Below the pieces are notes generated by a model. The model was given only the letters and a program-made list of their open reading frames with translations, ran no database searches and was not told the origin of the DNA. The position numbers and the translations under genes were made by a program. From Gemmatimonadota bacterium (GTDB lineage: Bacteria; Gemmatimonadota; Gemmatimonadetes; Gemmatimonadales; Gemmatimonadaceae), in the NCBI GenBank assembly GCA_028287305.1, contig JAQBPX010000038.1:186001-250000 (forward strand): a DNA stretch of 64,000 nucleotides. Reading direction: 5' to 3'. Below are positions 14,796 to 61,212 of this stretch, piece after piece. The first letter of the stretch is position 1, and every line of letters starts with the position of its first letter.

Positions 14796-15127
14796 GCCTG
14801 TATAATCGCGGCTCGGCCCGCTGGGGTCACAAGTTGGGGGCGAGGCGAGAGCCGGGAGGGACGGGACGTCTTCCTTCGGGCTTTCAACTGCGGCTTTTAA
14901 CTGCGGCTGGCGGCTAGCGGAACTGACACTGCCGGGGCGGCTCGAGGGCGGCTACCGCGGCCAGGTCGGCTACTGCGGCTGGCGGCTCGCGGATCAACAC
15001 GCGGATCGTCAGCCGCCAGCCGCGTTGGCCGCCCTGGCCGAAGTGGCCGAGGTCGAGCCGTAGTGCCGTGTCAGTTCCGCTAGCCGCTAGCCGCCGTGGC
15101 CGTACAGATCGCTGCGCAGGAATGCCA
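14796..15127. repeat. Nested inverted repeats in intergenic region
   Basis: Outer pair: 14903-14930 and 15067-15094 match as inverted copies (core GGCTAGCGGAACTGACAC). Inner pair: 14975-14987 (GCGGCTGGCGGCT) and 15011-15023 form a perfect 13-base stem. The whole 190-base stretch could fold as a long hairpin. The GCGGCTnGCGG core recurs at about 23630 beside the ATP synthase delta gene, which suggests a dispersed element. It lies between the start of the plug-protein gene and the stop of the S9 peptidase gene, both on the minus strand. Confidence 0.7.
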
Positions 15128-20553: not shown

Positions 20554-23208
20554 TCAGTCGTTGCGAAGCGCCGTCATGGGATCGATTCGCGACGCCCGCA
20601 CCGCCGGCACCAGGCAGGAGATCGTCGCGATCACGCCGAGCAGCAGCGCGACGCTCGCCAGCGTCGGAGGATCGCTGGGTCCGATACCGAAGAGCAGCGA
20701 CTGCAGGAAGCGCGAGAGGGCGAGCGCTCCAACCAGGCCGAACACCACGCCTGCGCTCGCAAGCACCAGCCCCTGCGCGAGGACCGAGCGCACGATGGTC
20801 GCCGGCGCCGCACCAAGCGCGCTCCGCAATCCCAGCTCGCGCGTGCGCTCGGTGACGGACCCTGCGATCACTCCGTAGATCCCGGCTCCCGCCAGCAGCA
20901 GCGCGACGATCGCGAACGCCGAGAAGAGCACGAGCGCCAGTCGTCGCTGCACGATGCTCGCCGACACGAGCTGCTCCATGGTCGCCAGGTGGACGATCGG
21001 CACGGCTGGATCGAGTCGCGTGATCGCCGATCGCACGGCCGTAGTCACCTGCGCGGGGTCGCCCGACGTGCGCAACACGAGCGAGGCGCCACTTTCCGCG
21101 CCGCGATACCAGGTTCGCATGGGGATGTATATCTGACGCCCGCTCGGGTCATCGAGTCCCGCATGCCGCACGTCCTGCGCGACGCCGACCACGGTGTACC
21201 ATGGCTGCGTCGGCTCTCCCATCTGCACCTGCTTGCCGAGCGGCGATTCCCCGCCCCAGATGGTCTTCGCGAGCGTCTCACTCACCACTACGACCTTCGT
21301 GGCGGAATCGGCGTTATCCGCCGCCTGAAAAGCCCGGCCGCTGATCATGCGCATCTTCATGGTGCGCATGTAGTCCGCCGTCACTGAGTAACGATCCGCA
21401 CTGGGCGCCAGCTCGGGATTGGCGAGCGGCTTGTCCTGCGCACGCACTCCCTGGCCATCCACGTTGCCGCTCAACGGCAGCTGGCTCGCGAAGCTTGCAC
21501 CCTCCACGCCGGGAATCGCTTGCACCGCAGCCAGCACCTGGTCCTGGAACGCGAGCACCGGCGCATCCACGCTGTAGCGTGCACCGATGGCGTCCACCTC
21601 CATGGTGAGCAGGTGTGACTCGTCGAATCCCGGGTCCACCGACAGCAGGCCGAACAGGCTGCGCGCCACGAGCCCGGCGCCCACGAGCAGCATCATCGCC
21701 AGCGCGAACTCGCCGACCACTATGCCGCGTCGCGCGAACTTGCGCGATCCACCCGCGAGCCGCGCGCCAGAGCGTAGCTCGATGAAGTTCGTGCTCTCGG
21801 CGCTGCGGAGTGTCGGTGCCAGCCCGATCGCCAGGCCGAGCAGCGCAGTCACGAGCGCGGCGAGCGCGAGCGTGGACCACTGGGCGTGGATGTCACCGAG
21901 GCGCGGTAGCCGGTCCGGCAACCGCGAGACGAGCAGCGGCAGCGACCAGAGCGCCACCGCCACTCCTGCGACGCCGGACATCACGGCGAGCACGATGCCC
22001 TCGGCCGCCAGCTGCTGGATGAGTCTCCGGCGTCCCGCCCCCAGCGCGGTGCGGATCGCGAACTCGCCCTCGCGACGCGCCGAGCGCGCGAGCTGCAGGT
22101 TCACCACGTTCGCGACCGCGATCAGCAGCACCAGCACCACCGCGCCAAGCACCGAGAGCAACACGGGTCGCACGCCGCGCGTGACCTCGTCCTTCATCGG
22201 CGTCACGAGCGTCCCGATGCTGCCGTAGTCGTTGGGATACGCCGCCTTCAGTCGGGAGAAGCGCTGGTCGAGTTCCTTCGACGCGACGACCGGCTCGATA
22301 CCGGGCTTGAGCCGCGCGATCATCCGCAGGTGCCGGCAGGTGCGGCACGCCGAGGGCTGCGTGGCGCCGTAGCCGAGCACGCGGTAGAGCTGCGCGGTGG
22401 GTGAGATGGTGTTCTCGAACGACTCGGGCAGCACGCCGATGACGACCATCGGCGTTCCGTTGATGGAGATCGGTCGCCCGATGATCGAGCGATCAGACGC
22501 GTAGCGGCGCGCCCACAGTCCATGAGAGAGGATCACCACGCGCGGGAGGTCGGGCTGGTCCTCCGGCGCGGTGAAGTCACGGCCGATGGCCATCGGTACG
22601 CCGAGCGTGTGGAAGAATCCCGCCGACACGCGCATGCCATCCAGGCGCTCGGCCGCTCCCTCGCCGGTGAGTGCAGGCTGCCATTCGCCGGCCACCGCGG
22701 AGCTCTCGAGCGATTGCGCCTGCGACAGGTCCTGGTACGTCTGGAAGCCGAGCAGGTCGCGCTCGCCCTTGTCGTTTCGCTCCCAGATGAATGCGAGCCG
22801 ATCGGGCGACGGATACGGGAGTGGCCGCAGCAGCACCGGGTCCACGATGCTGTAGATCGCGGCGGTGGCGCCGATCGCGAGGCCGAGGGTGAGCGTGCAT
22901 ACGATGGTGAACGCGGGAGCGCGACGGAGGACGCGCACCGCGTGGCGCAGGTCGGCGAGGAATGACGCGAGCATGCCGTCCCCTGGAATGGGTCGCGCGG
23001 CGGGCGAGCTGTCGCTCGCGCGGATCGAGACGATGGCGCTCAAGGCGTCGCGCCAGAATGCGGCGCGCGCCGAGCGCAGTCCGTTCGTCGCGAGCCGGCG
23101 ATGAAAGAGCTCGGAGAGGTCGCCGACCACGGGCTCGCGCTCGTCGGTGGGAAGCAGCGCGTCGAGCAGCCAGGTGGCGAGGCGTGGCGGCCGATGTTCG
23201 GCGCTCAT
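20554..23208 (-). CDS. ADOP-family ABC transporter permease (prefix domain 2 type)
   Basis: 884 residues: an N-terminal cytoplasmic prefix (about 10-60, LPTDEREPVVGDLSELFHRR), then a membrane segment (about 98-120, VCTLTLGLAIGATAAIYSI), a MacB-type periplasmic domain, three-segment FtsX domain, then a second membrane segment/MacB/FtsX half, ending SRIDPMTALRND. This duplicated layout defines ADOP (Acidobacterial duplicated orphan permease) proteins, which lack their own ATPase. It overlaps the PadR gene by four bases (ATGA), so both are translated together. Substrate unknown; related permeases export peptides, lipoproteins or antibiotics. Confidence 0.9.
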   Translation of the reverse strand: MSAEHRPPRLATWLLDALLPTDEREPVVGDLSELFHRRLATNGLRSARAAFWRDALSAIVSIRASDSSPAARPIPGDGMLASFLADLRHAVRVLRRAPAFTIVCTLTLGLAIGATAAIYSIVDPVLLRPLPYPSPDRLAFIWERNDKGERDLLGFQTYQDLSQAQSLESSAVAGEWQPALTGEGAAERLDGMRVSAGFFHTLGVPMAIGRDFTAPEDQPDLPRVVILSHGLWARRYASDRSIIGRPISINGTPMVVIGVLPESFENTISPTAQLYRVLGYGATQPSACRTCRHLRMIARLKPGIEPVVASKELDQRFSRLKAAYPNDYGSIGTLVTPMKDEVTRGVRPVLLSVLGAVVLVLLIAVANVVNLQLARSARREGEFAIRTALGAGRRRLIQQLAAEGIVLAVMSGVAGVAVALWSLPLLVSRLPDRLPRLGDIHAQWSTLALAALVTALLGLAIGLAPTLRSAESTNFIELRSGARLAGGSRKFARRGIVVGEFALAMMLLVGAGLVARSLFGLLSVDPGFDESHLLTMEVDAIGARYSVDAPVLAFQDQVLAAVQAIPGVEGASFASQLPLSGNVDGQGVRAQDKPLANPELAPSADRYSVTADYMRTMKMRMISGRAFQAADNADSATKVVVVSETLAKTIWGGESPLGKQVQMGEPTQPWYTVVGVAQDVRHAGLDDPSGRQIYIPMRTWYRGAESGASLVLRTSGDPAQVTTAVRSAITRLDPAVPIVHLATMEQLVSASIVQRRLALVLFSAFAIVALLLAGAGIYGVIAGSVTERTRELGLRSALGAAPATIVRSVLAQGLVLASAGVVFGLVGALALSRFLQSLLFGIGPSDPPTLASVALLLGVIATISCLVPAVRASRIDPMTALRND

Positions 23209-26985: not shown

Positions 26986-27088
26986 GGGCTTTGGGCTTTG
27001 GGCTTTGGACTCTGGCACCCGCGCAACTGCACACCAGTCCGCTTCCAGCCGCAGTGCCCAAAGCCCAAAGTCAAAAGCCCAAAGTCCA
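26986..27088. repeat. GGGCTTT-type inverted repeat
   Basis: GGGCTTT occurs twice at 26986-26999 and again as GGGCTTTGG at 27000; the mirror form (CCCAAAGCCCAAAGTC and a further copy) is at 27057-27087. Together they form a long imperfect hairpin with a ~50-base loop. The same 7-base unit lies on the far side of the atp cluster at 23596-23626. Confidence 0.8.
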
Positions 27089-34906: not shown

Positions 34907-36991
34907 CTACGGCGTCATCACCGCACTATTCCGCATGACCAGGTTCTCGATGAAGAACTCCATCATCCGGTCGCCGTTCATCGCCGAGTGGCCGCGGTCG
35001 GGACCCACCTGCAGGTCGAAGCTCTTTCGCGCGCCCTGCAGCGCGCTCACGAGCTGCATCATGTTGTTGGGGTGCACGTTGTTGTCGGCGGTGCCGTAAT
35101 ACAGCATCAGCCGGCCCTTGAGGTCCGCCGCATACGTCATGGCCGAGCCGGTGTCGTAGCCGGCCTTGTTCTCCTGCGGAATCCACATGTACCGCTCGGT
35201 GTAGATCGTGTCGTAGTTGCGCCAGTCGGTCACGGGCGACATCGAGCTCGCCACCGAGAACACCTCGGGATGGCGCAGCAGCGACATGACCGACGCGTAG
35301 CCGCCGTAACTCGTGCCGAAGATGCCGACGCGCGACTGGTCGATGTAGGGCCGGTTCCAGAGTGACTTCACGCCCGCGGCCTGGTCGTCGATCTCGACCG
35401 TGCCCAGGTGCAGGTAGAGCGCGTCGAGCGCTCGCTTGCCATGGCCGGCGGCGCTGCGCGAGTCCAGCGAGAGCACGATGAAGCCGAGCTCCGTGTACGG
35501 GTGTGGCGTGGTGAAGCGCTCCGTGGCGCCATTCGTCTCCGGCCCGGCGTACACGGTCACCAGCACGGGGTACTTCTTCTTCGGGTCGAAGTTGCTCGGC
35601 TTGTGCAGCATGCCGTGCAGCTCGCTCACGCCATCGGCGGCCTTGTAGGTGAAGAGCTCCACCTTCTGGAGGCCGAGCTGCTGGAACTTGGAGATGTCGC
35701 TGTCAGCGATCGGCGCCACGAGGTTGCCGCGGCTGTCGCGAAGCACCGCCGAGGGCGGGATGTCGTGCGACTGCGCGACGTCCACGAACCACGCGCCATC
35801 GGGCGACATCGTGATGCCGTGGTTGAGCGCGGGGTCGGTGATGCGCGCGTCGCCCTTGCCGTTGAGCCCCACGCGGTGGAGCTGGATCTTCATGTGGTTG
35901 TCGCCGCTCCGCGCCGTGTAGTACACGACACCGAGCTTCTCGTCCACGCGCACGATGCCCGTGACCTCGTACGGATGCGTGGTGAGCGCGGTGAGGAGCT
36001 TGCCGCCCAGGTCGTAGAGATAGTAGTTGCGGAAGCCGGTGCGCTCCGAGGCGAAGATGAAGCGCTTGCCATCGGCCAGGAACTTGAGCTCGGGGGTGTT
36101 CTCCACCCAGCCGGTGGGCCACTCCTCGCGCACGATCGCATGGCAGGCACCGGAGGTGGGGTTGCACCCCGTGACTTCCATGATGTTCTGGCGGCGGTTG
36201 GTGCGATTGAAGGTGATCTCGCTGCCGTCGGCGGTCCACGCCACGTGATAGACGTAATGCCCCACGACGTCGTTCGAGAACGGCTTGCCGTCGCGGACGT
36301 CCATCTCCTTGCGGGTCTTCGTCGCCACGTCGTAGACGTAGAGCGTGACGATCGGGTTGTTCACGCCGGCCTTGGGGTAGGCCTCGGTGTCGATGGAGCT
36401 CTGCAGCTTGGTCTGCTCCATCTGCAGGTAGTAGTCGGGCACGGGGCTCTCGTCGAAGCCGTAGTAGGCGATCTTCTTCCCGTCGGGCGACCACCACATG
36501 GCGGTGACCTGCGCGAGCTCCTCACCGTAGACCCAGCTGCCCGTTCCGAACTTGGTCCGCTTCGCGAGGCTGCCTTCCGTGGTCACGGCGTATTCGCCGG
36601 TGCCGTCGGCCTTCGAGATCCAGAGGTTGCGGTCACGATAGAAGGCGCGCTGCGTGCTGTCGGGCGAGAGCGCGACGTCGAACTGGCGGCCGCGATCCGG
36701 GTTCCGGCCGCGCTGCTGGGCGGCGGTGAGGGGCGGCGCCTCGAGCGCGGCGCGGCTGGCGACGTCGAAGCGCCAGCGCTTGCCGGCGAAGCCGTAGTCG
36801 AAGGACTTGCCGTCGGGCGCCCAGGTGAAGAACTGCGGCGCGAGGCGCACCGAGGTCGGGATCTGCGGCGACATGGTCTCGTAGCGCGCGTAGCCCGGCA
36901 TGGTCTTGAGGCGGTCCTGGGCGCGGGCTGCCGTGGCCGCGGCTGCCAACAGGACTGCGACGGAGGCAGCGCGCGAAAAGTTCAGGGTCAT
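34907..36991 (-). CDS. Dipeptidyl peptidase IV-type S9B peptidase, exported
   Basis: 694 residues starting MTLNFSRAASVAV with a signal peptide (cleavage after about ARAQ, 25). Beta-propeller domain (about 40-450) followed by an alpha/beta hydrolase with triad GTSYGG (S561), YGTADNN (D636) and DRGHS (H668). Cleaves N-terminal dipeptides, commonly X-Pro, outside the cytoplasm. The start was chosen at the first Met before the signal peptide; the frame continues far upstream but that sequence is not protein-like. Single gene. Confidence 0.92.
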   Translation of the reverse strand: MTLNFSRAASVAVLLAAAATAARAQDRLKTMPGYARYETMSPQIPTSVRLAPQFFTWAPDGKSFDYGFAGKRWRFDVASRAALEAPPLTAAQQRGRNPDRGRQFDVALSPDSTQRAFYRDRNLWISKADGTGEYAVTTEGSLAKRTKFGTGSWVYGEELAQVTAMWWSPDGKKIAYYGFDESPVPDYYLQMEQTKLQSSIDTEAYPKAGVNNPIVTLYVYDVATKTRKEMDVRDGKPFSNDVVGHYVYHVAWTADGSEITFNRTNRRQNIMEVTGCNPTSGACHAIVREEWPTGWVENTPELKFLADGKRFIFASERTGFRNYYLYDLGGKLLTALTTHPYEVTGIVRVDEKLGVVYYTARSGDNHMKIQLHRVGLNGKGDARITDPALNHGITMSPDGAWFVDVAQSHDIPPSAVLRDSRGNLVAPIADSDISKFQQLGLQKVELFTYKAADGVSELHGMLHKPSNFDPKKKYPVLVTVYAGPETNGATERFTTPHPYTELGFIVLSLDSRSAAGHGKRALDALYLHLGTVEIDDQAAGVKSLWNRPYIDQSRVGIFGTSYGGYASVMSLLRHPEVFSVASSMSPVTDWRNYDTIYTERYMWIPQENKAGYDTGSAMTYAADLKGRLMLYYGTADNNVHPNNMMQLVSALQGARKSFDLQVGPDRGHSAMNGDRMMEFFIENLVMRNSAVMTP

Positions 36992-37078
36992 CGGGGTGAG
37001 TCCTGGGTGATTACCGGTGCCGGGTTCTACCCCATGAATCTGGTGGAGTGCGCGGCCCACAGACAGTCCGCGATCGGC

Positions 37079-37200
37079 GCGCCAGGGCCGAAAAGCCTTT
37101 GCCGCGGACGAGCGCGGACGAGGCAGGAGAAAGCAGTATTCCCTGCAGTTCTTCGCGCTCGTCCGCGGTCGTCCGCGGCTGAATGCCGTTGCAGTTGGCT
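37079..37200. repeat. 122-base palindromic repeat, copy 1
   Basis: Almost the same sequence as 39714-39834, in the same orientation. Inside is an inverted repeat: GCCGCGGACGAGCGCGGACG (from 37101) against its mirror ending at 37179, which has one mismatch here. The shared ends are GCGCCAGGGCCGA and TTGCAGTTGGCT. The two copies bracket an ADOP permease gene. Confidence 0.85.
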
Positions 37201-37224
37201 GTTGACACCAACGCCTCGCCCGCG

Positions 37225-37250
37225 CACTGTATGGGTCAACTAATACAGTG
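37225..37250. promoter_or_regulatory. Operator-like palindrome before truncated ADOP gene
   Basis: CACTGTAT, ten bases, ATACAGTG: perfect 8-base arms. It lies ~65-90 bases before the GTG start of the permease gene. No regulator is encoded next to it, so the site would be served by a regulator elsewhere. Confidence 0.5.
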
Positions 37251-37315
37251 AGAGCAACCTGTCGAGCGTCACAGTCGCTGCCCGAAGCCTCAGGAAGCAG
37301 CCCGCCTTCACGAGC

Positions 37316-39673
37316 GTGGTCGTCCTGTCGCTCGCGCTGGCAATCGCGTTGAACACGACCATGTACAGCATGCTCGACGCGATGCTCCATCCCAGGCTGG
37401 ACATGGTGCGCCCCGAGGAGATCTGGTGGGTGAAGATGTTCGGCGACTATCGCTGGAAGGTGGACGACGCGAGCAGGGCGCGAGCGGTGTCGGAAGGATT
37501 GCGAAGCGCCTACGCCTCCACGACCTACCTGAGCGGATTCGGAACACGCCAGCTCGTGGAGTTCGGTTCGGTCACGCGTGAGGCGGACGAGGCGCTCGTC
37601 TCCCCGAACTATTTCGACTTCATCGGAGCAAGGCCGCGATTCGGGCGCCTGTTCCTGCCGAGCGATTCGCTCAGCGAGATCGCGGTCGTCATTCGCGAAT
37701 CGATGGCGCGGGAGTTGTTCCTCGACCCGTCGAAGGCGGTCGGACAAACGGTCCTCCTCAACAAGGAGCCGCACGTCATCATCGGCGTCGTTTCCGACTA
37801 CGCAAAATTTCCGGGCGAGCGGCCACCGGACGTCTGGATGTTGGGGCGGGGAATATATCCCCGCGCAATGTTCGTCCGGCTGGTGCGGCTGAAGCCCGGC
37901 GTCACGCGCCAGCAGGCAGAGTCGGAGCTTGCGGCGGTCGCCACGCACCTCGACCAGGACGGCGGCTACGCGCCGGGCGAGATCGCCTTCCGCTTCATTG
38001 CGGCCGCGAAGCCGCAATTCCAGCTCAAGGGCTTCCACCAGGCGATGATCTTCTCGGTGTTCTCGGTGCTGCTCGTCGCCTGCGCCAATCTCGCCAACAT
38101 CCAGCTTGCCCGGGGCATCGGACGCCGTCGTGAGCTTGCGCTCCGGTCGGCGCTCGGCGCAACGCGCGGCCGGCTCGTGAAACTCCTCCTCCTCGAGAGC
38201 GCCCTCCTCGGCGCCGCGGGACTCGCGCTCGGACTGGTGCTGACGTACTGGGGTGCGCATGCGCTTCGCGCATCAATCCCGAAGGCGATCGGTGAGATGA
38301 TCGTGGAGCCGCAGTGGAGCTGGCGCGTGTTGCTTGCCGCGCTCGGCGCGACATCGCTCTGCATCGTGCTGATCGGCCTGTTGCCGGCGCTCACGGTGTC
38401 GAGACTCGATCCGGCGGAGCTGATCAAGAGCGGGCACGGCACCGGGGCGACGCATCGCAACCGCCGCCGGTACGGCATTCTCGTGGCGTTCGAGATCGGC
38501 CTGGCGCTGGCACTGCTGAGCAGCGCGACGGTCACGGTGAGGTCGGCGCTCATCGTCAGCGGGATCGGCATGGGGTTCGACCCGAAGCCGATCGCGATCG
38601 GGTACATCAACTACCACGGCGACTCGGGGCGGAAGGTCGCGACCGGCGCGGTGCTGCAGATGCTCGCCGACCGGCTGGCGCATGTCGACGGGGTGTCGCA
38701 GGGGACGGTGAGCACGTACAAGGGACTGCAGGAGGGCACGCTCACGTACACCGACGGCACGGGCACGCATGAGTACGAGCAACGCAGCTACGGGGTGAAC
38801 GTCGTGACGTCCTCCTACATGAAGGTGTTTGGCTATCCGATCCTGATGGGGCGGGACTTCGCCGCCGGTGAGCAGGACGAGGGGCTGATCATCGTCGACA
38901 AGCCCACCGCGCAGGAACTGTGGGGGAGCGCGAACCCGGTGGGGCAACAGGTGAAGCTCGGGGCGGGGCGGACGAATGCTCCCTACCTGCGGGTGATCGG
39001 AGTCGTCGGCGAGGACCCGCGCTTCAACTCGCAGGGGTTCTCTCCGCAGGCGGGTCGCAGCCGGAGGCTTGGCGGCATCTACTACCTGCCGTCCCAAAAG
39101 GATTCCTCGACCTACGGGAAGGGCAGCATCGGCTTCCGGTTCACTGCGCGCGCAGCGTCGGGTGACGCGACGCGCCTGCCCGTCGACATCCGGAACGGCA
39201 TGCGCGGGTCCGGAGACGTCCGCGTGCAGTACGTGCAGACGGCGGACAATTACTTCGGCTACTCGTCCGCCCGGGCGAGCCTTCGCTTTGTCGCCTGGCT
39301 ATTCTCGCTGTTCGGCGTCATGGGTGTCGGGCTGGCGGCGTTCGGCGTCTATGGAGTCGTTGCGCACTCGGTCGCGGAGCGGCGGCGCGAGATGGGGGTG
39401 CGGCTCGCGCTGGGGGCCGATGCGGCACATATCCTCCACGCCATCCTGCGCGAAAGCGTTGTGGTGGCGCTCGGAGGCATCGCGTTCGGGTTGATGGCGT
39501 CGAAGTACGGGGTGCAGCTGCTCGATGCGTTCGCGTGGCCTGGCGACCTCTACAACCCGTTGATCTTCGCGGCGACGGGACTCGCGATGCTCGCCACGGT
39601 ACTGTTGAGCGCGTGGGTGCCGGCGCGCCGGGCCACGCGCATCGATCCGGCGGAGTCGCTGCGCTCGGAGTGA
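37316..39673 (+). CDS. ADOP-family ABC transporter permease, N-terminus shortened
   Basis: 785 residues from GTG 37316. Duplicated MacB/FtsX layout: first membrane segment VVVLSLALAIALNTTMYSML, periplasmic domain with SPNYFDFIGARP, FtsX-type segments with ANLANIQLARGIGRRRELAL, second half with periplasmic domain and VAERRREMGVRLALGADAAH, ending ATRIDPAESLRSE. The usual ~25 residues before the first membrane segment (AARSLRKQPAFTS) are coded upstream in frame back to about 37259 (a CTG), but a stop at 37241 leaves no prefix domain and no ATG. So either a non-standard start is used or the gene lost its 5' end. No PadR gene is beside it. Confidence 0.82.
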   Translation: MVVLSLALAIALNTTMYSMLDAMLHPRLDMVRPEEIWWVKMFGDYRWKVDDASRARAVSEGLRSAYASTTYLSGFGTRQLVEFGSVTREADEALVSPNYFDFIGARPRFGRLFLPSDSLSEIAVVIRESMARELFLDPSKAVGQTVLLNKEPHVIIGVVSDYAKFPGERPPDVWMLGRGIYPRAMFVRLVRLKPGVTRQQAESELAAVATHLDQDGGYAPGEIAFRFIAAAKPQFQLKGFHQAMIFSVFSVLLVACANLANIQLARGIGRRRELALRSALGATRGRLVKLLLLESALLGAAGLALGLVLTYWGAHALRASIPKAIGEMIVEPQWSWRVLLAALGATSLCIVLIGLLPALTVSRLDPAELIKSGHGTGATHRNRRRYGILVAFEIGLALALLSSATVTVRSALIVSGIGMGFDPKPIAIGYINYHGDSGRKVATGAVLQMLADRLAHVDGVSQGTVSTYKGLQEGTLTYTDGTGTHEYEQRSYGVNVVTSSYMKVFGYPILMGRDFAAGEQDEGLIIVDKPTAQELWGSANPVGQQVKLGAGRTNAPYLRVIGVVGEDPRFNSQGFSPQAGRSRRLGGIYYLPSQKDSSTYGKGSIGFRFTARAASGDATRLPVDIRNGMRGSGDVRVQYVQTADNYFGYSSARASLRFVAWLFSLFGVMGVGLAAFGVYGVVAHSVAERRREMGVRLALGADAAHILHAILRESVVVALGGIAFGLMASKYGVQLLDAFAWPGDLYNPLIFAATGLAMLATVLLSAWVPARRATRIDPAESLRSE

Positions 39674-39713
39674 CGAAGCGGGCCTTTGGTTGTCATGCCT
39701 CCCTGCTGTCGGT

Positions 39714-39834
39714 GCGCCAGGGCCGAACAGCCTTTGCCGCGGACGAGCGCGGACGAGGCAGGACGAAGCAGGATTCCCTGCAGTTCTTCGCGCTCGTCCG
39801 CGCTCGTCCGCGGCTAAAGTTTTTGCAGTTGGCT
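39714..39834. repeat. 122-base palindromic repeat, copy 2
   Basis: Direct copy of 37079-37200 on the other side of the ADOP gene. Here the inner 22-base inverted repeat (39736-39757 and 39793-39814) is perfect, with a 35-base loop. Confidence 0.87.
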
Positions 39835-39849
39835 TGCCGCCATGAAGAA

Positions 39850-39876
39850 GCTCCCCCCGGCATTGCCGAGGGGAGC
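39850..39876. terminator. Terminator hairpin after the SusCD operon
   Basis: GCTCCCC and GGGGAGC arms around an inner CGGC/GCCG stem; on the minus strand it is followed by TTCTTC. It lies 25 bases past the SusD stop codon. Confidence 0.7.
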
Positions 39877-39900
39877 CTCCTCAATCAGGACAGGAGTGCC

Positions 39901-41487
39901 CTACCGGCGCGTATGGCTCCGATCCCGCCTGCTCCACATGTCGTCGAAGATCGTGCTGACGGTCGACGCTGAGCCGCCCGCCACCCGGTTCATGCCCGTC
40001 GGGTTTGCCGCTCCGCCGAAGGTGTAGAGCTCCTTCTGCAGCACGCCCAGCTCCTTGGCGGGAACCGGCATCTGTCGCGGCGTTTGCTCCTGCAGTCCGT
40101 CGATGCGCCGACGGTTGTAGTAGGGCTGCGGTCCGAGCCCCAGCTCCTCCACTTCCTGCTCGTACTGCAGCTTGGTGAGCAGGCCGGCCGCGCCGTCGGC
40201 TGCCGTCGCCGGCGGCAGGCCACCGCGACCCACGCGCGTGTTGTTGATCAGGTTCGCGGCGGTCGTGAGGTTGCCGTTCGTGCGGATCAGCCCCTCCGCC
40301 CACAGCAGGTCGTTCTCGGCCTTGCTGATCACCGGCACCACGCCATAGCCGCCGCCCGTTCCCGCGGGATCGCTGGGCGTGGCGTACTCGTAGCGCACGT
40401 GCCCGATCTCGCTCTGGTGATACTGGCCGCGCGCCGGCCGGAAGATCTGGTCGGAGTTCCAGCGGAAGTCGGTGCCGTTGTCGCCGTTGCCCATCCGCTT
40501 GTCGGCGGAATTCGGCTTCGGGTTGCCGGTGGGATCGGGCCATGGGTGCTTCTGCGTGACCGGGTCGATCAGGTGCGTGACGCGAGTGTCGACGCGCTCG
40601 GTCGTGATGTCGTCGCCCCAGGCCTTGAGGTTGTCGCAGAAGTTGACGCATCCGTCGCCGGTGAACTGGAAGTCCCGTCCACCGTTGCTGATGCCGTCGG
40701 CGGCGAGCGTGGCCACCTTCGCCCAGTCGGCCGCGGTGTTCTCGACGCCGTTGCGCGGGTAGTACGCGATGGTGCGCGCCGCGAACGTGTTGGCCAGCTT
40801 CGCGATCTCGACGTTCGTGTAGCTCGTGCCATTCGTCCACGACGCCGGCGTCGAGAACGCATTCGCCTTGGCCAGGGTGGCCGCCTCCGCCAGCTTCGCG
40901 AGCGCCGCATCGCGCATCTGCGCGCGCGTCGAGAACTTGAGCGTGGTGAGGTCGGTACTCTCGTCCACGATGAAGCCCTGGTCGTAGTTCGTGGCGAGCG
41001 ACGAGAGCATCATCCCCTGCGCCAGCACGCCGATGGTCTCCACCATCTTCGTGTTGGCCGCGTCGCCGATCACCACGTTGCCCTTGCGGATCGCCCGCAG
41101 CGCGTCGTTCGCCGACGACAGCGCGGCGTAGTAGCCATACCAGTACCACTCGATGGAGGTGCGCGCCGCGGAGGCGGGATCGTTCTCCCATCCGCCGCGC
41201 TTCGCGCCCGAGGGATCGCCGATCCCCCCGGACGAGTAGAGGCGCATGTTGTAGTTGTTCCAGCTCGCCGTGTAGCTGTCGGCCATCACGGTGAGCACGC
41301 CGGCGGCTTCCATTCCCTGCGTGGTGTTGAACCACGAACGGAGGGTGCCGCCCGCCACGGCCTGCACGCCACTCGGGTCGGCGAGGGCGCGCCCCGCATC
41401 CGGGGCGTTGGGGTTCTGCACGTCCAGGGTGTCGCACGCCGCGAGCGAGAGCCCGGCGGCGGCGGCAATGATGTGTCTGAGTCTCAT
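39901..41487 (-). CDS. SusD/RagB-family outer-membrane nutrient-binding lipoprotein
   Basis: 528 residues, starting MRLRHIIAAAAGLSLAAC with a lipobox (Cys18). SusD signatures: the N-terminal DTLDVQNPNAPDAGRALADP, TPR-like helices, and the RagB C-terminal region with ENDLLWAEGLIRTNGNL, INNTRVGRGGLP, and YNRRRIDGLQ. It pairs with the SusC barrel whose stop lies two bases before its start. SusD captures the ligand at the cell surface and hands it to SusC; the substrate here (glycan or peptide) is not evident. Confidence 0.92.
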   Translation of the reverse strand: MRLRHIIAAAAGLSLAACDTLDVQNPNAPDAGRALADPSGVQAVAGGTLRSWFNTTQGMEAAGVLTVMADSYTASWNNYNMRLYSSGGIGDPSGAKRGGWENDPASAARTSIEWYWYGYYAALSSANDALRAIRKGNVVIGDAANTKMVETIGVLAQGMMLSSLATNYDQGFIVDESTDLTTLKFSTRAQMRDAALAKLAEAATLAKANAFSTPASWTNGTSYTNVEIAKLANTFAARTIAYYPRNGVENTAADWAKVATLAADGISNGGRDFQFTGDGCVNFCDNLKAWGDDITTERVDTRVTHLIDPVTQKHPWPDPTGNPKPNSADKRMGNGDNGTDFRWNSDQIFRPARGQYHQSEIGHVRYEYATPSDPAGTGGGYGVVPVISKAENDLLWAEGLIRTNGNLTTAANLINNTRVGRGGLPPATAADGAAGLLTKLQYEQEVEELGLGPQPYYNRRRIDGLQEQTPRQMPVPAKELGVLQKELYTFGGAANPTGMNRVAGGSASTVSTIFDDMWSRRDRSHTRR

Positions 41488-41489
41488 GG

Positions 41490-44400
41490 TCAGAATCCGA
41501 GCTCGATGACGGCGGTGAAGGTGCGGAAGTTCGGGTAGTTGAAGCCGTCGAAGCGGAAGGTGTACGGATCGCCGCCGAGGCCCGAGACCTCCGGGTCGTA
41601 CCCGGAGTACTTGGTCCACGTCATGATGTTGCGGCCCACGATGCCGATGCGGGCGCTGGAGACGCCGCCGAACTTGAGGCGGCTCACGAGGCTCACCGGC
41701 ACGGTGTAGTTCACCGACAGCTCCTTCAGCTTCACGTAGCTGCCGCTCTCCACGAAGTAGTCATTCGCGTCGAGCCCGTTGTAGAAGGTGTTGTAGTACT
41801 GCTGCGACTTCCGCTCGGCCGCCGGCTTCGCGCGCTGGTCATAGACCCAGTCGCGATTCTCGAAGAAGGGCCACTGGCGCGTGGCGTTGTAGATGTTCCC
41901 GCCCTTCGACCAGTCGAACACCGTGTTCAGCGCGAGGCCGTGGAACTGCATGTTGTTGTTGAGGGACAGGTTGAAGTCGGGGTTCACGTCCCCGATCTGC
42001 ACCTTGGTCTTGCCCTCGGAGTTCACGTACTTGATCGCGGCCTCGGAGACGGTGCGCCACGAGCTCTTGCGCACCACGAACCCCTCCTCGTTCACGAGCA
42101 CGGAATCGCGGTTCCACGCCTGGCCGGCGCCCGACGCGGCCTTCTTGGCCGGATCGTCGTAGAGCTGGTCCACGTTGCGGACCCACTTGTCGCCGTACAT
42201 CACGCCGAACGGCTGGCCCGCCGCCATGCGGAACATCTGCACCTGCGCGGTGGCGCCCGGGAAGGTGGGGCCCGTGAGGAAGGGCGCGACCGACAGCGCC
42301 GTGATGCGCTGGCGCGTGCGGTCGCCCGTCACGTTCGCGCGCCACGAGAAGGTCGGGCTGGTCGCGATGAGCGCGCCGAGCGCGACCTCATGCGTCTTGC
42401 CCTCGAGCGAGCCGGCGTTCTGCCACTGCGTCTGGTAACCAGTCGCGGCGGAGAGCGGCACCTGGATGATCTGGTCGGTGGTCGCCTTCTGCGAGTACGT
42501 GTACTCCAGCGAATAGCGCGACAGGAAGTCCAGGTTGAAGCCGGCTTCGGTCTCCGTAGAATGCGCCGGCTTGAGGTTGCGATTGCCGAGGTTCACCTTG
42601 GTCGGCGAGCCGCCAAGGATGGCGAACGACTCGTACTGCGCGTCGAACACCGGGCGCAGGCCGGCCGTGCCGCGCGAGGCGCGGAGGCGGAACTCGTCCA
42701 CGCCGGGCAGGGTGAAGTCCTGCGAGACGCGGTACGCCGCCGACGCACGATAGTAGTTCGCGGCGCGATTGTCCTTGCCGAACAGCGAGCTCTCGTCGCG
42801 ACGCACCAGCCCATCCACGATGAACTTGTCGCGGATGTCGAAGGTCGAGATGAGGAACGTGTTGCGGTTGCGAATGGTGATGGTCTGCGAGCCGGCCGTC
42901 AGCTGGCTCTGCTCGCCCGCCGAGAACTCCGGCGTGCCCGGCACGGTGAGGCTCCCCGTGGCCGTCGTCACCTGGTTGTTGTACTGGCTCTCGAAGATGT
43001 ACGCAGCCTTCGTGGTGTTCGTGAACCAGTTCCTGTAGCTGCGGATCGCCATCAGCGTGGCGCCGGTGTTGATGGTGCGCCCGTTCACCGACTGCTGCGT
43101 GAGGTTGCCGTCGCCCGGCACGCCAGTCGCGTCGAGGAATCCGCGGGGGGTGAGCTGCTTGATCCCCTGGTTCTCCTGGTCGTAGTTGTAGTTCCCCTCC
43201 GCGGTGAGCCAGTCGGCCAGGCGATAGCGCAGCTTGCCGGTGCCGGTGAAGCGCGAGCGGTCGGTGGTGTTCTTCTGGTTGTGCAGGAAGTAGAGCGGGT
43301 TGATGGCGTTGTTCGAGATGCGATTCGGGATCTGCGCCGCGTAGGGCGATCCGTCAGGATTCTTCGCGAACAGGTCGACATCGGGTTCCACGAACGTGAC
43401 TGCGAAAAACGGACCGAGCGGCCCGTCGATGGTGCCCTGGTTGTTCGACTTGCCGAAGAAGGTGCCGAGCGACAGGTCGAGCTTGTCGTTCACGCCGCGA
43501 TCCACGTTGATGCGCATGTTCTCGCGCGTGAAGCCCTTGAGCTCCTTGATGATCCCCTCGTTGCGGTTGTGCTGGAACGAGGCGTTGTAGTTGGTGGCGC
43601 CCACCTTCTGCCCAATGGAGAGGTAGCTCGTCCAGAACTGCCCGGGCTGGATGACCTCCTTCAAGTGATTATGCGGATTGAGATAGGCGTTGTCGGCGAT
43701 GCCGTTCGACTCCGCCTGGCGCGGGCACGTAGCGGGGTTGGCCGCGCCACAGTTCGTGCGCACGTAGTTGCCACTCGCGTCCACCTGCCAGGCGTGAGCG
43801 CCCGACTGCGGCTGGAACTTCGTCTGGAAGTTCGCGCCCGCCTCCGAGCGGAAGGTGACCACCTGCTGGCCCTCGGCCTGGTTGGCGCCGCGCTTCGTGA
43901 AGAGCTGCACCACGCCGTTGGCTGCGTCGGACCCGTAGAGCGAGCTGGCCGCTGCCCCCTTGATGACCTCGATGCGCTCGATGTCCTCGGAGTTGATGTC
44001 GGCCAGGCTCGCGCGCGTGATGGTGCCGTCGATGATAATGAGCGGGTCCTGCAGCCCGGTGATGCTCGTGCTGGAGCGCAGGCGAATCACCGGCGCCGCG
44101 CCGGGATCACCTCCCGACTGCAGCACGCGCGCCCCGGCCACCTTGCCGGTGATGCCGCCGAGCGCGCTCGTGGCGGGCACGTCCTTCAGCTGGTCGGCGG
44201 ACACGGTGCCCACCGAGAACGCGAGCTTCTTCTTCTCGATCGCGTCGGCGGTGCCGGTGACGACCACTTCACTCAGCTTGACCGGGTCGGGAAGGAGCTT
44301 GAAGTCCTGGACCTGCGTGCCGCCGGCGAGCGTGACCTGCCGCGAGATCGGCGTGTGCCCGAGGAAGCGCACGCGAAGCACCACGCCCTGGCCATTCGCA

Positions 44401-46353: not shown

Positions 46354-46511
46354 GTCGCGGGTCGGGGTGGCAGTCTCTCTGACACCAGTGCTACGCGAAC
46401 GGTTGCCGGATCGTTCGGCGGCTTCCCTCGATTGGGGCACTTCATACGTAAGGGTCTTGTAGCGGAACGGGATACCTCGCCGGGAGGACTCGTGATGCTG
46501 TTGGCGTGGTT

Positions 46512-46695
46512 GCGCTCCACACGTAGGGGTCGATTGGCGTAACAGCTGATCATGGTCTCCTCGGACTTGCGCGGACGAACAGATGCGGACTTTCGCGGAA
46601 ACGACAACCGACTCCTTGTGAACGGCACACCCATCGGGGTCTCCGAGGAGACCATAATCAGGCTTTACGCCCATCGACCCCTACGTGTGGAGCGC
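46512..46695. repeat. MITE-like inverted-repeat element, copy 1
   Basis: Ends match as inverted repeats: left GCGCTCCACACGTAGGGGTC, right its mirror. A second inner pair around TGATCATGGTCTCCTCGGA and its mirror follows. It is the same element as 49866-50126 with about 80 bases missing from the right arm. The two copies lie on either side of a PadR-ADOP pair. Confidence 0.85.
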
Positions 46696-46749
46696 GAGGA
46701 GGCCAGGACTTCCCCGTCGAGTACCGCAGCGGCCCCCCCGAGCCGCATC

Positions 46750-47149: not shown

Positions 47150-49848
47150 TGTCGATCATCCCGGAGGTGCGCCACCTGCTGCGCGCGCTGTTCGCCCGCC
47201 CGGCGCTGGAGCGCGAGCTGGACGACGAGCTGCGCTTTCACCTCGAACAGGAGGCGGCGAAGCACGTCGCCGCCGGCGCGTCTCCCATGGAGGCCGAGCG
47301 CCGGGCGCGCGCCAGCTTCGGCGGCGTGCAGCGCATCAAGGACGACACCCGCGACGCGCGCGGCATCGCACTGATCGAGCAGCTGAGCCAGGACGTGCGC
47401 TACGCGGCCCGCGGCATCCGTGCTCGCCCGGGCTTCGCCGCCGCGGTGATCCTCACCCTGGGACTCGGCATCGGCGCCAACGCGACGATGTTCAACGTGG
47501 TGGACCGCCTGATGTTCAGGCCAGGGCCCTTCCTGCGCGACGCGGGCTCCGTCAATCGCGTGTACCTCTCGCACCTGGAGGAGGGAAAGCCGCGCACGGA
47601 TCGCAACACGGAGTACACGCGCTTCCTCGACCTGGCGCGCGACACGCGCTCATTCTCGGCGCTCGTGCCCATCGGGCATCCGACCCTCGCGGTGGGCACG
47701 GGAGAGTCCGCGCGCGAGATGAACGTGGACGCGGTGGGCGATCACTTCTTCGAGCTGTTCGACGCGGCACCCGCCGTGGGTCGCTTCTTCCTTCCCGACG
47801 AGCACACGCGCCCGCGTGGTGCGCCGGTGGCGGTCCTCTCCTGGGACCTCTGGCAGTCGCGCTTCGAGGGCAGGCGTGACGTGCTCGGCACCTCGCTGCA
47901 GGTGGGCCTCGTGAACGCCACCGTGGTGGGAGTTGCCCCGCGCGGGTTCACCGGCCTGGGCGACGTGGACCAGCGGCCCGCGCTCTACCTGCCGATCACG
48001 ACGTACGCCGGCAGCCGGGTGACGAAGGACCCGAGCGCGTACTACACGAACTACAACTGGGGCTGGCTGGAGCTCATCGCGCGACGGAAGCCCGGCGTGA
48101 CCGTGGATGCGGCGAACGCCGACCTGTCGAGCGCGTATCGCCGGAGCTGGGAGGCGGAGCGCGCGCTCAGCGGCGGCATCCCTCCGGCGGACAGTGCGCG
48201 CCCGATGGCGCTGGCTGGGCCACTCCAGGTGGCGCGTGGCCCCCAGGCGGGCCGAGATGCCAGCGTGGTGCTGTGGATTTCGGGTGTCTCACTGATCGTG
48301 CTGCTCATCGCGTGCGCCAACGTCGCGAACCTGTTTTTCGCTCGCGGGCTGGGGCAGCGACGCGAGGTGGCCGTGCGCCTGGCACTCGGCGTCTCCAAGG
48401 GCCGCCTGCTGCGACAGCTGCTCACGGACAGCGTGCTGCTCTCGCTGCTCGGCGGCGTGGCGGGCCTGTTCATGGCCCACTGGGGCGGGCGCATCATCCA
48501 GTCGATCTTCCTGCGCGGCGAGGTGACGCTCGGGGTGCTGGGGGACACGCGTACGCTGGTGTTCGGCGGCGCGGCCGCGATTGCCTGCGGCGTGCTCACT
48601 GGCCTGCTGCCGGCGGTGCGTGCTGGTCGCACGGAGCTCGTGACGCAGCTGAAGAGCGGCGCGCGAGCGGGACGGGAGCGGTCTCGCGCTCGCACCGCAC
48701 TGCTGGTGGCGCAGGGTGCGCTGAGCGTGGTGCTGCTCGTGGGCGCCGGGCTCTTCGTGCGCAGCCTGTACAACGTGCGCACCACGCGGCTCGGTTACGA
48801 CGTGGATCCGGTGCTCTACGTCAGCGGCAACCTGCGTGGCGTCAGGCAATCGCCAGCGGAGCTGATCGTGCTTGCGCATCGACTGGCCGAGGAGGCGCTG
48901 AGCGTTCCCGGCGTGGTGAGTGCGGCGCGCGGGCTCACCGTGCCCTTTCGCGACACCTGGTCGCAGCCGCTCTTCCTTCCGGGGCGTGGCTCGATGCGGA
49001 AGCTCGGCAGCTTTACGCTGCAGGGTGCGAGCCCGGAATTCTTCCGCACGATGGGCACCACGATCCTGCGCGGGCGCGGGTTCACCGATGCGGACCGCGC
49101 CGGAGCGCCGCTGGTGGCCGTGGTGACGGAGAAGATGGCGAGCGCGCTCTGGCCCGGCGTGAACGCGATCGGCCAGTGCATGCGGCTCGACGTGGACACG
49201 ATGCCCTGCACCACGGTGGTGGGCATCGCCGAGGACATGCACCAGCGGAGCATGGTGGATGATCCGGGGCTGCACTACTACCTGCCGATCGACCAGTTCC
49301 ATCCGGAGGACGGCGCGCTGTTCGTGCGAACGAATGGCGACGCGAGCGCGATGGCCGGCACCGTGCGCAAGCGGCTGCAGGCGCTGATGCCGGGCGCGAG
49401 CTACGTGAACGTGACGCCGATGCGCGAGATCGTGGGGGAGACGCAGCGCGCGTGGGACTTCGGCGCGCGCATGTTCCTGGCGTTCGGCCTGCTGGCGCTC
49501 GTGCTGGCCGCGATCGGCATGTACAGCGTGATCGCCTATGACGTCGCGCAGCGCACGCAGGAGATGGGCGTGCGGATGGCGCTGGGGGCGCAGCCGAGCG
49601 ACCTGATGCGCCTGGTGCTGGGCGACGGGATGCGCCTCACGGCCACGGGGCTGGTAATGGGTGGCGCGCTCGCGCTGCTGGCGACGCGCGGCATGACGCC
49701 GATGCTGTTCAACGTGTCGCCGCGAGACCCGGCGGTATTCGGGGTGGTGGCGGCGGTGCTCTGCGTGGTGTCGGTGGTGGCGTGCCTGATCCCGGCGGTG
49801 CGCTCGGCGCGGGCGAATCCCAGTGAGGCGTTGCGGGGGGATTCGTGA
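47149..49848 (+). CDS. ADOP-family ABC transporter permease (prefix domain 1 type)
   Basis: 899 residues. N-terminal permease prefix (about 18-65: ELDDELRFHLEQEAAKHVAA, EAERRARASFGG), membrane segment (about 95-118, AAAVILTLGLGIGANATMFN), then periplasmic MacB-type domain, FtsX segments (LLIACANVANLFFARGLGQR), and the second membrane/periplasmic/FtsX half (MGVRMALGAQPSDLM), ending SARANPSEALRGDS. No ATPase gene is near. Part of a PadR-ADOP cassette bracketed by inverted-repeat elements. Export substrate unknown. Confidence 0.92.
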   Translation: MSIIPEVRHLLRALFARPALERELDDELRFHLEQEAAKHVAAGASPMEAERRARASFGGVQRIKDDTRDARGIALIEQLSQDVRYAARGIRARPGFAAAVILTLGLGIGANATMFNVVDRLMFRPGPFLRDAGSVNRVYLSHLEEGKPRTDRNTEYTRFLDLARDTRSFSALVPIGHPTLAVGTGESAREMNVDAVGDHFFELFDAAPAVGRFFLPDEHTRPRGAPVAVLSWDLWQSRFEGRRDVLGTSLQVGLVNATVVGVAPRGFTGLGDVDQRPALYLPITTYAGSRVTKDPSAYYTNYNWGWLELIARRKPGVTVDAANADLSSAYRRSWEAERALSGGIPPADSARPMALAGPLQVARGPQAGRDASVVLWISGVSLIVLLIACANVANLFFARGLGQRREVAVRLALGVSKGRLLRQLLTDSVLLSLLGGVAGLFMAHWGGRIIQSIFLRGEVTLGVLGDTRTLVFGGAAAIACGVLTGLLPAVRAGRTELVTQLKSGARAGRERSRARTALLVAQGALSVVLLVGAGLFVRSLYNVRTTRLGYDVDPVLYVSGNLRGVRQSPAELIVLAHRLAEEALSVPGVVSAARGLTVPFRDTWSQPLFLPGRGSMRKLGSFTLQGASPEFFRTMGTTILRGRGFTDADRAGAPLVAVVTEKMASALWPGVNAIGQCMRLDVDTMPCTTVVGIAEDMHQRSMVDDPGLHYYLPIDQFHPEDGALFVRTNGDASAMAGTVRKRLQALMPGASYVNVTPMREIVGETQRAWDFGARMFLAFGLLALVLAAIGMYSVIAYDVAQRTQEMGVRMALGAQPSDLMRLVLGDGMRLTATGLVMGGALALLATRGMTPMLFNVSPRDPAVFGVVAAVLCVVSVVACLIPAVRSARANPSEALRGDS

Positions 49849-49865: not shown

Positions 49866-50126
49866 GCGCTCCACACGTAGGGGTCGATCGGCGTACGGCC
49901 TGATCATGGTCTCCTCGGACTTGCGCGGACGAACAGAAGCGGACCTTCGCGGAAACGACAACCGACTCTTTGTGAACGGCACACCCATCGGGCTACTGCC
50001 CCGACAGGTGTGCCGTTCCAAAAGCATTGCAGTTGCAGTCTCCGCGAAATTCAGGCAGTTCTCCGCGGTAGTCTCCGAGGAGACATGATCAGCCATTACG
50101 CCGATCGACCCCTACGTGTGGAGCGC
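49866..50126. repeat. MITE-like inverted-repeat element, copy 2 (full length)
   Basis: ~260 bases that pair end to end as one long hairpin: left arm from GCGCTCCACACGTAGGGGTC through GAACGGCACACC, right arm the mirror from GGTGTGCCGTTC through the closing GACCCCTACGTGTGGAGCGC. Copy 1 at 46512-46695 is an internally deleted form. No coding sequence. No clear target-site duplication is visible. Confidence 0.87.
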
Positions 50127-60319: not shown

Positions 60320-61174
60320 ATGCGACGCGACCCGCACCAACTGCGTGACGAAGGGAGCGCCACCGTGATGCGCTCGGTCCGGCTCTCCTGCGGGAGCGTC
60401 GACCTGTTCCATGCGCGCGGCTTCGCGCACCGGTTCCCGCCGCACGTCCACGACGAGCACGCGATCGGCGTGTTCGAGGGCGGCGCGAGCGAGATCTCCT
60501 ATCGCGGCGCCACGGCCACCGCGGTCACCGGCTCCCTGCTCGCCATCAGCGCGGGCCAGGTGCACTCGGCGCACGCCCCCACCGCGGAGGGATGGTCGTA
60601 CCGCATGCTGTACCCGTCGCCGGCGGTGCTGCGCACGGTGATCGGCCTGGAGGCGGGCGACCTCTTTCCACGCGCCGTGATTCGCGACGCCGAGCTCGGC
60701 GCGCGCATGGGGATGGTGCACCGGCTGCTGCTCGCCGAGGGGGCGTCGATGCAGGCGGAGGCGTCGCTGGCGGAGCTGCTGCGCGTACTCTGGACGCGCC
60801 ATGCGCGCGCGACGTGGGACGATGGCGCGCGCACCGCGCCGATGCTGGTGGCCGAGCGCGCGCGCGATTACCTGGAGGCGCACAATGCGCGCGCGGTGCC
60901 GCTGGCCGAGCTGGCGGCGGTGGTGGGCGTGAGCGTGTTCCACCTGGTGCGGGTGTTCGGCCGCCGCTTCGGCGTGCCGCCGCATGCGTACCTGCGCATG
61001 CTGCGCGTGAGCCGCGCGCGGGAGATGCTGCGCACGGGCAAGCCCGCGTCGATCGTGGCGTACGAGTGCGGCTTCGCCGACCAGAGCCATTTCACGCGGT
61101 CGTTCAAGGACGTGGTGGGGATGCCGCCGGGACGGTTTACGGCGGGTGTGAGGCATGAGGAGCTGAGGGGCTGA
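60320..61174 (+). CDS. AraC-family transcriptional regulator
   Basis: 284 residues. N-terminal cupin-like ligand domain (about 20-95: PPHVHDEHAIGVFEGGASEI, SAGQVHSAHAPTAEGW), then helix-turn-helix pairs of the AraC type (about 180-275: LAELAAVVGVSVFHLVRVFG, SIVAYECGFADQSHFTRSFK, DVVGMPPGRFTAG). A later Met (60368) is an alternative start. No neighbour suggests a target. Convergent with the PQQ protein gene, sharing a terminator. Confidence 0.9.
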   Translation: MRRDPHQLRDEGSATVMRSVRLSCGSVDLFHARGFAHRFPPHVHDEHAIGVFEGGASEISYRGATATAVTGSLLAISAGQVHSAHAPTAEGWSYRMLYPSPAVLRTVIGLEAGDLFPRAVIRDAELGARMGMVHRLLLAEGASMQAEASLAELLRVLWTRHARATWDDGARTAPMLVAERARDYLEAHNARAVPLAELAAVVGVSVFHLVRVFGRRFGVPPHAYLRMLRVSRAREMLRTGKPASIVAYECGFADQSHFTRSFKDVVGMPPGRFTAGVRHEELRG

Positions 61175-61212
61175 GGAACGGCGTCCCCAGCCCCCCAAGT
61201 CCTCAGCCCCTC
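61165..61212. terminator. Bidirectional terminator hairpin
   Basis: GAGGGGCTGAGGA (61165-61177) and its perfect 13-base mirror (61200-61212) with a 22-base loop. The stem overlaps the stop codons of both convergent genes. Confidence 0.7.

Follow-up and report, generated by a model that had tools for sequence, protein, structure and literature searches.

The 64,000-nucleotide stretch analyzed here (the window; positions 186,001 to 250,000 of contig JAQBPX010000038.1, from a Gemmatimonadota bacterium) carries a gene for an ADOP-family duplicated permease that is flanked on both sides by copies of a hairpin-forming repeat. These repeats, which we consider likely to be gene-less copies of a mobile palindromic element associated with a small protein of the GxxExxY family, are the subject of this report. 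The features of the locus are as follows, with a strand given where one was assigned.

34907 to 36997, minus strand: gene for a DPPIV/S9 peptidase (PF00930, PF00326), the divergent neighbor of the ADOP gene
37074 to 37200, no strand: hairpin element copy 1, probably non-autonomous, intergenic between the divergent DPPIV-like and ADOP genes (repeat alignment, fold)
37101 to 37131, plus strand: left arm of copy 1, with two CGCGGACGAG units, the outermost beginning CCGCGGA; 84% complementary to 37149 to 37179
37149 to 37179, minus strand: right arm of copy 1 (inverted-repeat search)
37226 to 37249, no strand: operator-like palindrome ACTGTAT-N10-ATACAGT upstream of the ADOP gene (pattern search)
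37262 to 39670, plus strand: ADOP-family duplicated permease gene; core complete, first in-frame ATG, GTG, or TTG at 37316, codon at 37259 CTG
39709 to 39834, no strand: hairpin element copy 2, between the convergent ADOP gene and the open reading frame (ORF) at 39901 to 41619 (repeat alignment, fold)
39726 to 39757, plus strand: left arm of copy 2, 32 nt, 88% complementary
39793 to 39824, minus strand: right arm of copy 2 (inverted-repeat search)
39901 to 41619, minus strand: ORF on the 3' side of copy 2, adjoining a gene for a TonB-plug (SusC-like) receptor; no Pfam match of its own at 0.001

A preliminary description of this DNA reported nearly identical direct repeats around the ADOP gene, one of them with a perfect inner palindrome, and both observations hold. 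The segments 37079 to 37200 and 39714 to 39834, in the same orientation and 2635 bp apart, are 92% identical over 122 bp, and an ungapped alignment of 37074 to 37183 with 39709 to 39818 reaches 94% (110 bp); the similarity spans TCGG(C/T)GCGCCAGG through TTGCAGTTGGCT. Copy 2 contains a perfect 22-nt inverted repeat, GCCGCGGACGAGCGCGGACGAG and its complement, within its longer arms of 32 nt (88% complementary), and copy 1 has the same hairpin in a less perfect form (arms of 31 nt, 84%). The arms of both are made of inverted, head-to-tail copies of the 10-bp unit CGCGGACGAG. Folded as RNA, each copy gives one long hairpin that is much stabler than shuffled sequence (copy 1, -64.9 kcal/mol, z -7.8; copy 2, -70.6 kcal/mol, z -9.7). 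The ORF list places no gene of the S23 family, considered below, in either copy, and Rfam yielded no rRNA match at 36900 to 40000, where the copies sit between protein genes. Nine other Rfam matches in that interval (E values up to 1), all to microRNA families and far below their gathering scores, were rejected as chance.

A dispersed hairpin family with GxxExxY-bearing members

With the window repeat as the query, BLAST returned 74 matches across the source genome, which merge into 29 clusters when those at most 300 bp apart are joined (a GxxExxY-bearing copy counting as two), 27 of them beyond the window pair. The window repeats are members of a genome-wide family of short palindromes, not a private pair or the boundary of a known cassette. 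Apart from some matches of only 24 to 33 bp (94 to 100% identity), the best other long match to copy 1 is 82% identical, over query positions 17 to 120, compared with 92% for copy 2; given this closer match, one window copy was probably made from the other, or the two have been homogenized. In many copies, an end that is rich in T or contains AACTGC is followed by GCCGCGGACGAGCGCGGACGAG or one of its variants, a loop, and the inverse. A two-unit pattern occurs 52 times in the genome and its reversed control not at all, and arms facing inward at most 130 bp apart were found in 16 of 26 stretches, which had been selected for holding matches. The window also has long inverted repeats at 46502 to 46705 (64 nt, 86%) and 49866 to 50126 (43 nt, 93%).

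One copy of the family encloses a gene. At C4:607392-607858, window-type arms (35 nt, 86%) lying 443 bp apart from start to start surround an intact GxxExxY gene (TIGR04256/PF13366), whose product (L089) scores 113.7 bits against TIGR04256 (cutoff, 35) and 116.5 bits against PF13366 (cutoff, 22). It is one of seven GxxExxY genes in the source genome; three others have inverted arms built of different units (L092, 39 nt, 90%; L090, 48 nt, 85%; L088, 34 nt, 85%), and the remaining three (L086, L087, and L091) have no clear bounding arms. A second genome, G003, presents the same relationship between copies with and without the gene. About a dozen solo elements there have GATCGTCAACAGGGTTCACGCGGAAAACGCGGAAA as their common terminal inverted repeat and a loop of roughly 130 bp, 10 of the 11 measured (from 13 stretches) being 185 to 205 bp long from anchor to anchor; at L308, the loop is replaced by a GxxExxY gene between nearly the same ends, and at L304 one element is nested within another. 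Terminal inverted repeats are shared by solo and gene-bearing copies in both genomes. Across 25 genomes, a three-unit arm pattern matched 26 times in G000, 38 times in G003, and 261 times in G015, and at most 3 times in each of the other 22 (reversed-pattern controls, 0 to 7 per genome); 11 of these genomes carry GxxExxY, all three arm-rich ones among them.

For a wider comparison of the flanks, a strict score was used, the inverted similarity of the 300-bp sequences on the two sides of a gene; a lenient gapped score had proved too permissive (2985 and 2582 of 3000 controls were as good as L091 and L100, respectively). The sample of relatives comprised 26 of 31 GxxExxY and 29 of 93 S23 matches, with 9 contig-end loci dropped from the source genome and relatives together; L156 and L221 come from the genome that also yielded L111 and L101. 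Among 122 shifted control windows, one had a strict score of at least 18.

When GTDB contigs were searched with an alignment of three GxxExxY sequences, 509 loci were confirmed. The best 80 of these 509 are spread over Acidobacteriota, Planctomycetota, Verrucomicrobiota, Chloroflexota, Bacteroidota, Cyanobacteriota, Proteobacteria, Bacillota, and others, and 77 of the 80 have no stop in the matched stretch; two loci lie on archaeal-labelled contigs of metagenome-assembled genomes (L158, with arms, score 17; L185, score 8). After 6 of the 80 were left out for too little flank, 27 of 74 had an inverted-flank score of at least 18, compared with 0 of 458 controls. Their typical arms, ACCACAGAGGACACAGAGGACACAGAG, have an outermost unit CCRCRGAG and inner units NCRCRGAG, a grammar that the window arms GCCGCGGACGAGCGCGGACGAG fit loosely (CCGCGGAC and then GCGCGGAC). 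An inward-facing two-unit motif, picked after the flank-score result and on the same 74 loci, is found on both sides of the gene at 53 of them and at 0 of 732 control pairs. By a crude longest-ORF calling, for which 12 of the 80 loci were dropped, the gene runs with both neighbors at 34 of the 68 loci having at least 900 bp of flank and against both at 4. GxxExxY was matched in 8 of 72,556 plasmids, at 1 locus in viral contigs, and in none of 50,697 phage records. For five further loci, four of them on plasmids and one on a viral contig, the flank scores are 21, 19, 19, 11, and 10. In Flavobacterium, GxxExxY elements (L200 and L207) are seen at two junctions of what by eye is a Bat aerotolerance-like operon, close to stop and start codons.

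S23 elements and filled and empty junctions

A comparable arrangement surrounds a second family, S23, a four-helix bundle (TIGR02436; closest solved chains, 2gsc and 2rld). The source genome has eight S23/four-helix-bundle genes, most of them within inverted arms of short tandem units, and the strict score is at least 18 at 6 of these 8 loci and at 16 of 24 in relatives. In plasmids, 12 of 24 records were chosen blind to arms (11 from cyanobacteria and one from Azospirillum), and inverted arms bound the S23 gene in all 12 (scores of 14 to 31 versus 7 to 13 in 24 controls), with a period of 7 in 11 of the 12; some of these loci, such as L324 and L332, are the same insertion. A period can be read clearly in the arms of 17 S23 loci, 15 of which have 7, 8, or 14, and of 21 GxxExxY loci, all of which have 8 to 10; in many other arms, above all those of GxxExxY, it is not clear. 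Unit length thus tracks the protein family, a pattern suggesting that each protein recognizes its own arms.

Several S23 elements lie within CRISPR-Cas operons of cyanobacterial plasmids (L323, L325, and L329), twice between cas6 and cas4 and once between cas10 and cmr3; the element at cas10/cmr3 is not in PCC 7002. The window itself has three hairpins that by eye recall S23 loci. That at 26986 to 27087, with the 7-bp units GGGCTTT/AAAGCCC, resembles sequence lying 5' of the S23 gene L100 and is perhaps a solo S23-type element; the nested inverted repeats at 14900 to 15097, with GCGGCTGGCGGCT-type units, are like the arms of L098; and the hairpin at 61158 to 61219, AGGAGCTGAGGGGCTGAGGA, with an 8-bp unit, is like sequence beside L093 and L100.

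Comparison of plasmids that are about 98% identical reveals exact presence and absence of S23 elements. Plasmid C of Trichormus has a 428-bp S23 element at a junction that is empty in plasmids of Nostoc linckia and N. carneum, the flanks next to the junction in the Trichormus and N. linckia plasmids being 99 to 100% identical and the 5-bp GTAAT being doubled. In Nostoc plasmids, S23 elements of 506 and 417 bp occupy separate junctions within a single gene block; one of the junctions has 3 bp doubled and the other has no doubling, and at the second the right flank aligns poorly without gaps. As candidate target-site duplications, the S23 elements have GTAAT (5 bp) at one site, seen in two records, ATG (3 bp) at a second, and none at a third. 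GxxExxY elements also have filled and empty junctions. Between fabD and fabG, one is present in Sphingomonas parapaucimobilis, and the site is empty in S. paeninsulae and Rhizobium indigoferae; between radA and a flavin adenine dinucleotide (FAD) gene, one is present in Bacteroides finegoldii, Parabacteroides distasonis has an empty site, and in Phocaeicola massiliensis the junction is occupied by another ORF.

These junctions bear on the idea that the hairpins are kept for a role in RNA, as terminators, mRNA ends, or agents of translation coupling, and have multiplied by recombination or slippage only. The very stable folds and the position of copy 2 between convergent genes would suit such a role, as would the cyanobacterial short tandemly repeated repetitive (STRR) sequences, whose 7-bp hairpins have been discussed as possible transcript stabilizers (PMC2670836). 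However, whole S23 elements are exactly present or absent between plasmids about 98% identical, G003 has nested copies as well as terminal inverted repeats common to about a dozen loci, and copy 1 lies upstream of both adjoining genes; we regard an origin of this kind as improbable.

The ADOP gene between the repeats

The ADOP gene had been described as truncated and bereft of an N-terminal prefix, neither of which is borne out. It aligns to positions 5 to 803 of the 803 of TIGR03434 (E value, 8.5e-155; 516.9 bits, below the curated cutoff of 622.3), has no internal stops, and has a coding-like GC content by codon position (0.65/0.48/0.88). Two ADOP paralogues lie on the same contig, at C4:261301-263706 (62% identity) and C4:272471-274876 (50%); by eye, neither has a longer prefix and both start near the corresponding position, and hence no prefix need have been lost. 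Where the paralogues have ATG, the window gene has AAC and then CTG, also by eye, and what was taken for a lost prefix is better read from these sequences as the loss of an ordinary start codon in a gene of the prefixless kind.

In both paralogues, the ATG comes shortly after the palindrome ACTGTAT-N10-ATACAGT. The genome has four such sites at up to two mismatches (three exact, one with 1 mismatch; none for the reversed control), at 37226 to 37249 of the window and at C4:157942, 261266, and 274914. Three precede the ADOP genes, the window gene included, and the fourth precedes another ORF. A palindrome common to three ADOP genes suggests control in trans, and the sites possibly constitute a small regulon under a PadR-type regulator acting in trans. 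The window-type repeat is absent from the 20- and 16-kb stretches holding the two paralogues, and the best explanation is that the ADOP gene has a regulatory history of its own, apart from the flanking insertions.

The preliminary description further proposed that recombination between the repeats would delete the gene. Direct repeats of 92% identity on both sides of it could in principle permit this, and to that extent the proposal stands; that they make the gene a deletable cassette is possible but unsupported, and we think it very improbable. The repeats are members of a dispersed family with 27 other clusters, no such repeat lies within the stretches around the two paralogues that have the same operator, and none of the available relatives is close enough to show ADOP loss, the 39 other genomes including none of the same genus. 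An ortholog of the DPPIV gene is present in five relatives, too distant for a test of ADOP synteny, and in none of them does a close ADOP gene adjoin it; two of the five have a distant ADOP-like gene (28 to 29% identical) 2 to 5 kb off. Further ADOP-like stretches, 27 to 28% identical to the gene at 37262 to 39670, occur in the window at 20557 to 22941 and 47701 to 49842.

Proposed mobilization and relation to known elements

Short tandem or palindromic repeats of this sort are common in bacterial genomes and, to our knowledge, without explanation. For the family described here, an account has to cover its dispersal, arms that in two genomes occur both alone and around the gene, nesting, arms across phyla, and filled and empty junctions. 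We propose, as the probable though far from certain explanation, that the window repeats represent a mobile palindromic element in short, non-autonomous form, an element that a GxxExxY protein mobilizes in trans and host repair copies, and we read the pair as two such copies comparable to miniature inverted-repeat transposable elements (MITEs). In the fuller element, these arms would enclose a single small gene, GxxExxY. The arms would extrude or anneal to give a hairpin, which the GxxExxY protein, supplied in trans, would recognize and nick; host repair would then copy the element into gene junctions, with gene-less copies riding along in MITE fashion. The pair around the ADOP gene would have arisen by two insertions or by the copying of one element from the other, leaving one on each side of the gene. 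We infer three parts of this scheme, namely, the choice of GxxExxY as the mobilizing enzyme, its action on the hairpin, and the copying step. GxxExxY is favored as the probable mobilizer because this is the simplest account of three findings: the arms occur with and without its gene, no REP-associated tyrosine transposase (RAYT) or RVT_1 was found, and unit length matches the protein.

We know of no established function for GxxExxY or S23. GxxExxY is a single-domain protein of the PD-(D/E)XK superfamily, in which D61, E71, K73, and Q85 are invariant in 14 sequences including L089, and their equivalents are invariant in 30 others. A sequence search for solved relatives returned none up to an E value of 0.1. 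Its AlphaFold model (pLDDT, 96.4) has SSO0001, which we take to be a Cas4, and lambda exonuclease as the top Foldseek matches, with a weak best E value of 7e-3; SSO0001 is likewise the best match by VIA (Z, 9.7; rmsd, 3.4; 96 residues aligned), and Hjc resolvases score 6 to 7. These matches support membership in the superfamily, with a Cas4/Hjc-like predicted fold, not an activity. In the openly licensed literature, we found no tie between GxxExxY and repeats, which is weak evidence of absence.

Several observations weigh against this proposal. The PD-(D/E)XK fold is common to many nucleases and shows no function, and the Foldseek similarity is, as noted, weak. The arms are often decayed or lacking, the strict score being at least 18 at only 4 of 7 GxxExxY loci of the source genome and 9 of 22 in relatives, and 2 of the 5 plasmid and viral-contig loci fall below 18. 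Only 3 of the 11 GxxExxY-carrying genomes are rich in the searched arm unit, and the other 8 are not. The two-unit motif, besides its post hoc choice, fits 2 of the 29 loci of the source genome and relatives, where the units differ. At no fixed offset do more than 1 of the 11 G003 elements have a target-site duplication of 5 bp or longer (4 bp, at most 3 of 11). The empty GxxExxY sites are known only between species or genera, at about 70 to 77% identity, with joints that are not exact to the base. Finally, some window-type arms in the source genome enclose unrelated ORFs, so that the arms may not require the GxxExxY gene: those at L082 (4054 to 4820) surround an ORF of about 230 codons from stop to stop, and those at L068 (3923 to 5120) surround a SIMPL-like gene, so named by eye. 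These ORFs may be cargo, or the arms may be accidental pairs.

Such ORFs, and still more the S23 loci, would be expected if other machinery in trans moved the arms, with GxxExxY and S23 as passengers picked up for helping the element or the host. S23 supplies the best argument for passengers: it lacks the PD-(D/E)XK fold and yet has the same layout of arms plus gene, with flanks scoring at least 18 at most loci of the source genome and relatives and at least 14 at all 12 in plasmids. On the other side, the source genome has no match to the reverse transcriptase RVT_1 (PF00078) or to a Y1 transposase, and unit length pairs with the protein family (7, 8, or 14 for S23; 8 to 10 for GxxExxY). We consider passengers unlikely, though they deserve to be taken seriously.

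Among known systems, REPINs are dispersed short palindromic doublets with a presumed partner protein in trans (PMC3116915, PMC3733652), and a GTAG or CGTC tag is described alongside their palindromes (PMC3733652). The family in the window resembles them in consisting of dispersed short palindromic doublets but differs in having arms of tandem units of about 8 to 10 bp and a putative partner gene within the arms, of the PD-(D/E)XK superfamily, with no Y1/RAYT gene found. That these short inverted doublets are themselves REPINs moved by a RAYT is hardly credible: PF01797 has 0 matches in the source genome, and the same search was positive in 5 of 14 control genomes. In MITEs, solo copies have the terminal inverted repeats of the parent transposon. 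The elements described here are alike in that the solos and the gene-bearing copy have terminal inverted repeats in common, and they differ in having no known transposase and, among the 11 G003 elements, no constant target-site duplication.

The known case of S23 in inverted repeats is the intervening sequence of 23S rRNA, described as a small ORF between inverted repeats in a unit of about 0.43 kb (PMC4990558). The S23 elements match its layout and size; unlike it, they lie between protein genes, rather than in rRNA genes, and often have 7-bp tandem arms, and a parallel class carries GxxExxY. The cyanobacterial STRR sequences are intergenic hairpins of 7-bp tandem units, for which the part of the source that treats them names neither a function nor a partner gene (PMC2670836). 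Their period is that of the arms in 11 of the 12 plasmid S23 loci, and by this analogy STRR sequences may be S23 arms; the window unit differs, being 10 bp, and the 7-bp period belongs to the S23 loci. The TAACTGA direct repeats of Beggiatoaceae, for which mobility has been considered (PMC4679880), are similar in being heptamer tandem repeats at gene junctions.

A bolder form of the proposal, for which we would give somewhat less than even chances, is that GxxExxY is the sole mobilizer of very widespread minimal elements with arms of tandem CRCRGAG-type units, by a new transposition chemistry, and that S23 elements are a parallel class with 7-bp units. In this form, a Cas4/Hjc-like PD-(D/E)XK nuclease encoded between the arms would act on the hairpin and thereby spread its own gene as well as gene-less hairpins. 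If so, this chemistry would be unlike that of DDE, HUH, serine, tyrosine, or reverse-transcriptase elements, and a single kind of element would underlie both the rRNA intervening sequences and the cyanobacterial STRR sequences. Tying each of the two families to its own arms gives both GxxExxY and S23 a testable role. It also points to a possible source of the 23S rRNA intervening sequences and the cyanobacterial heptamer repeats and suggests, as the mover of a widespread element, a type of nuclease not so far known as a stand-alone transposase.

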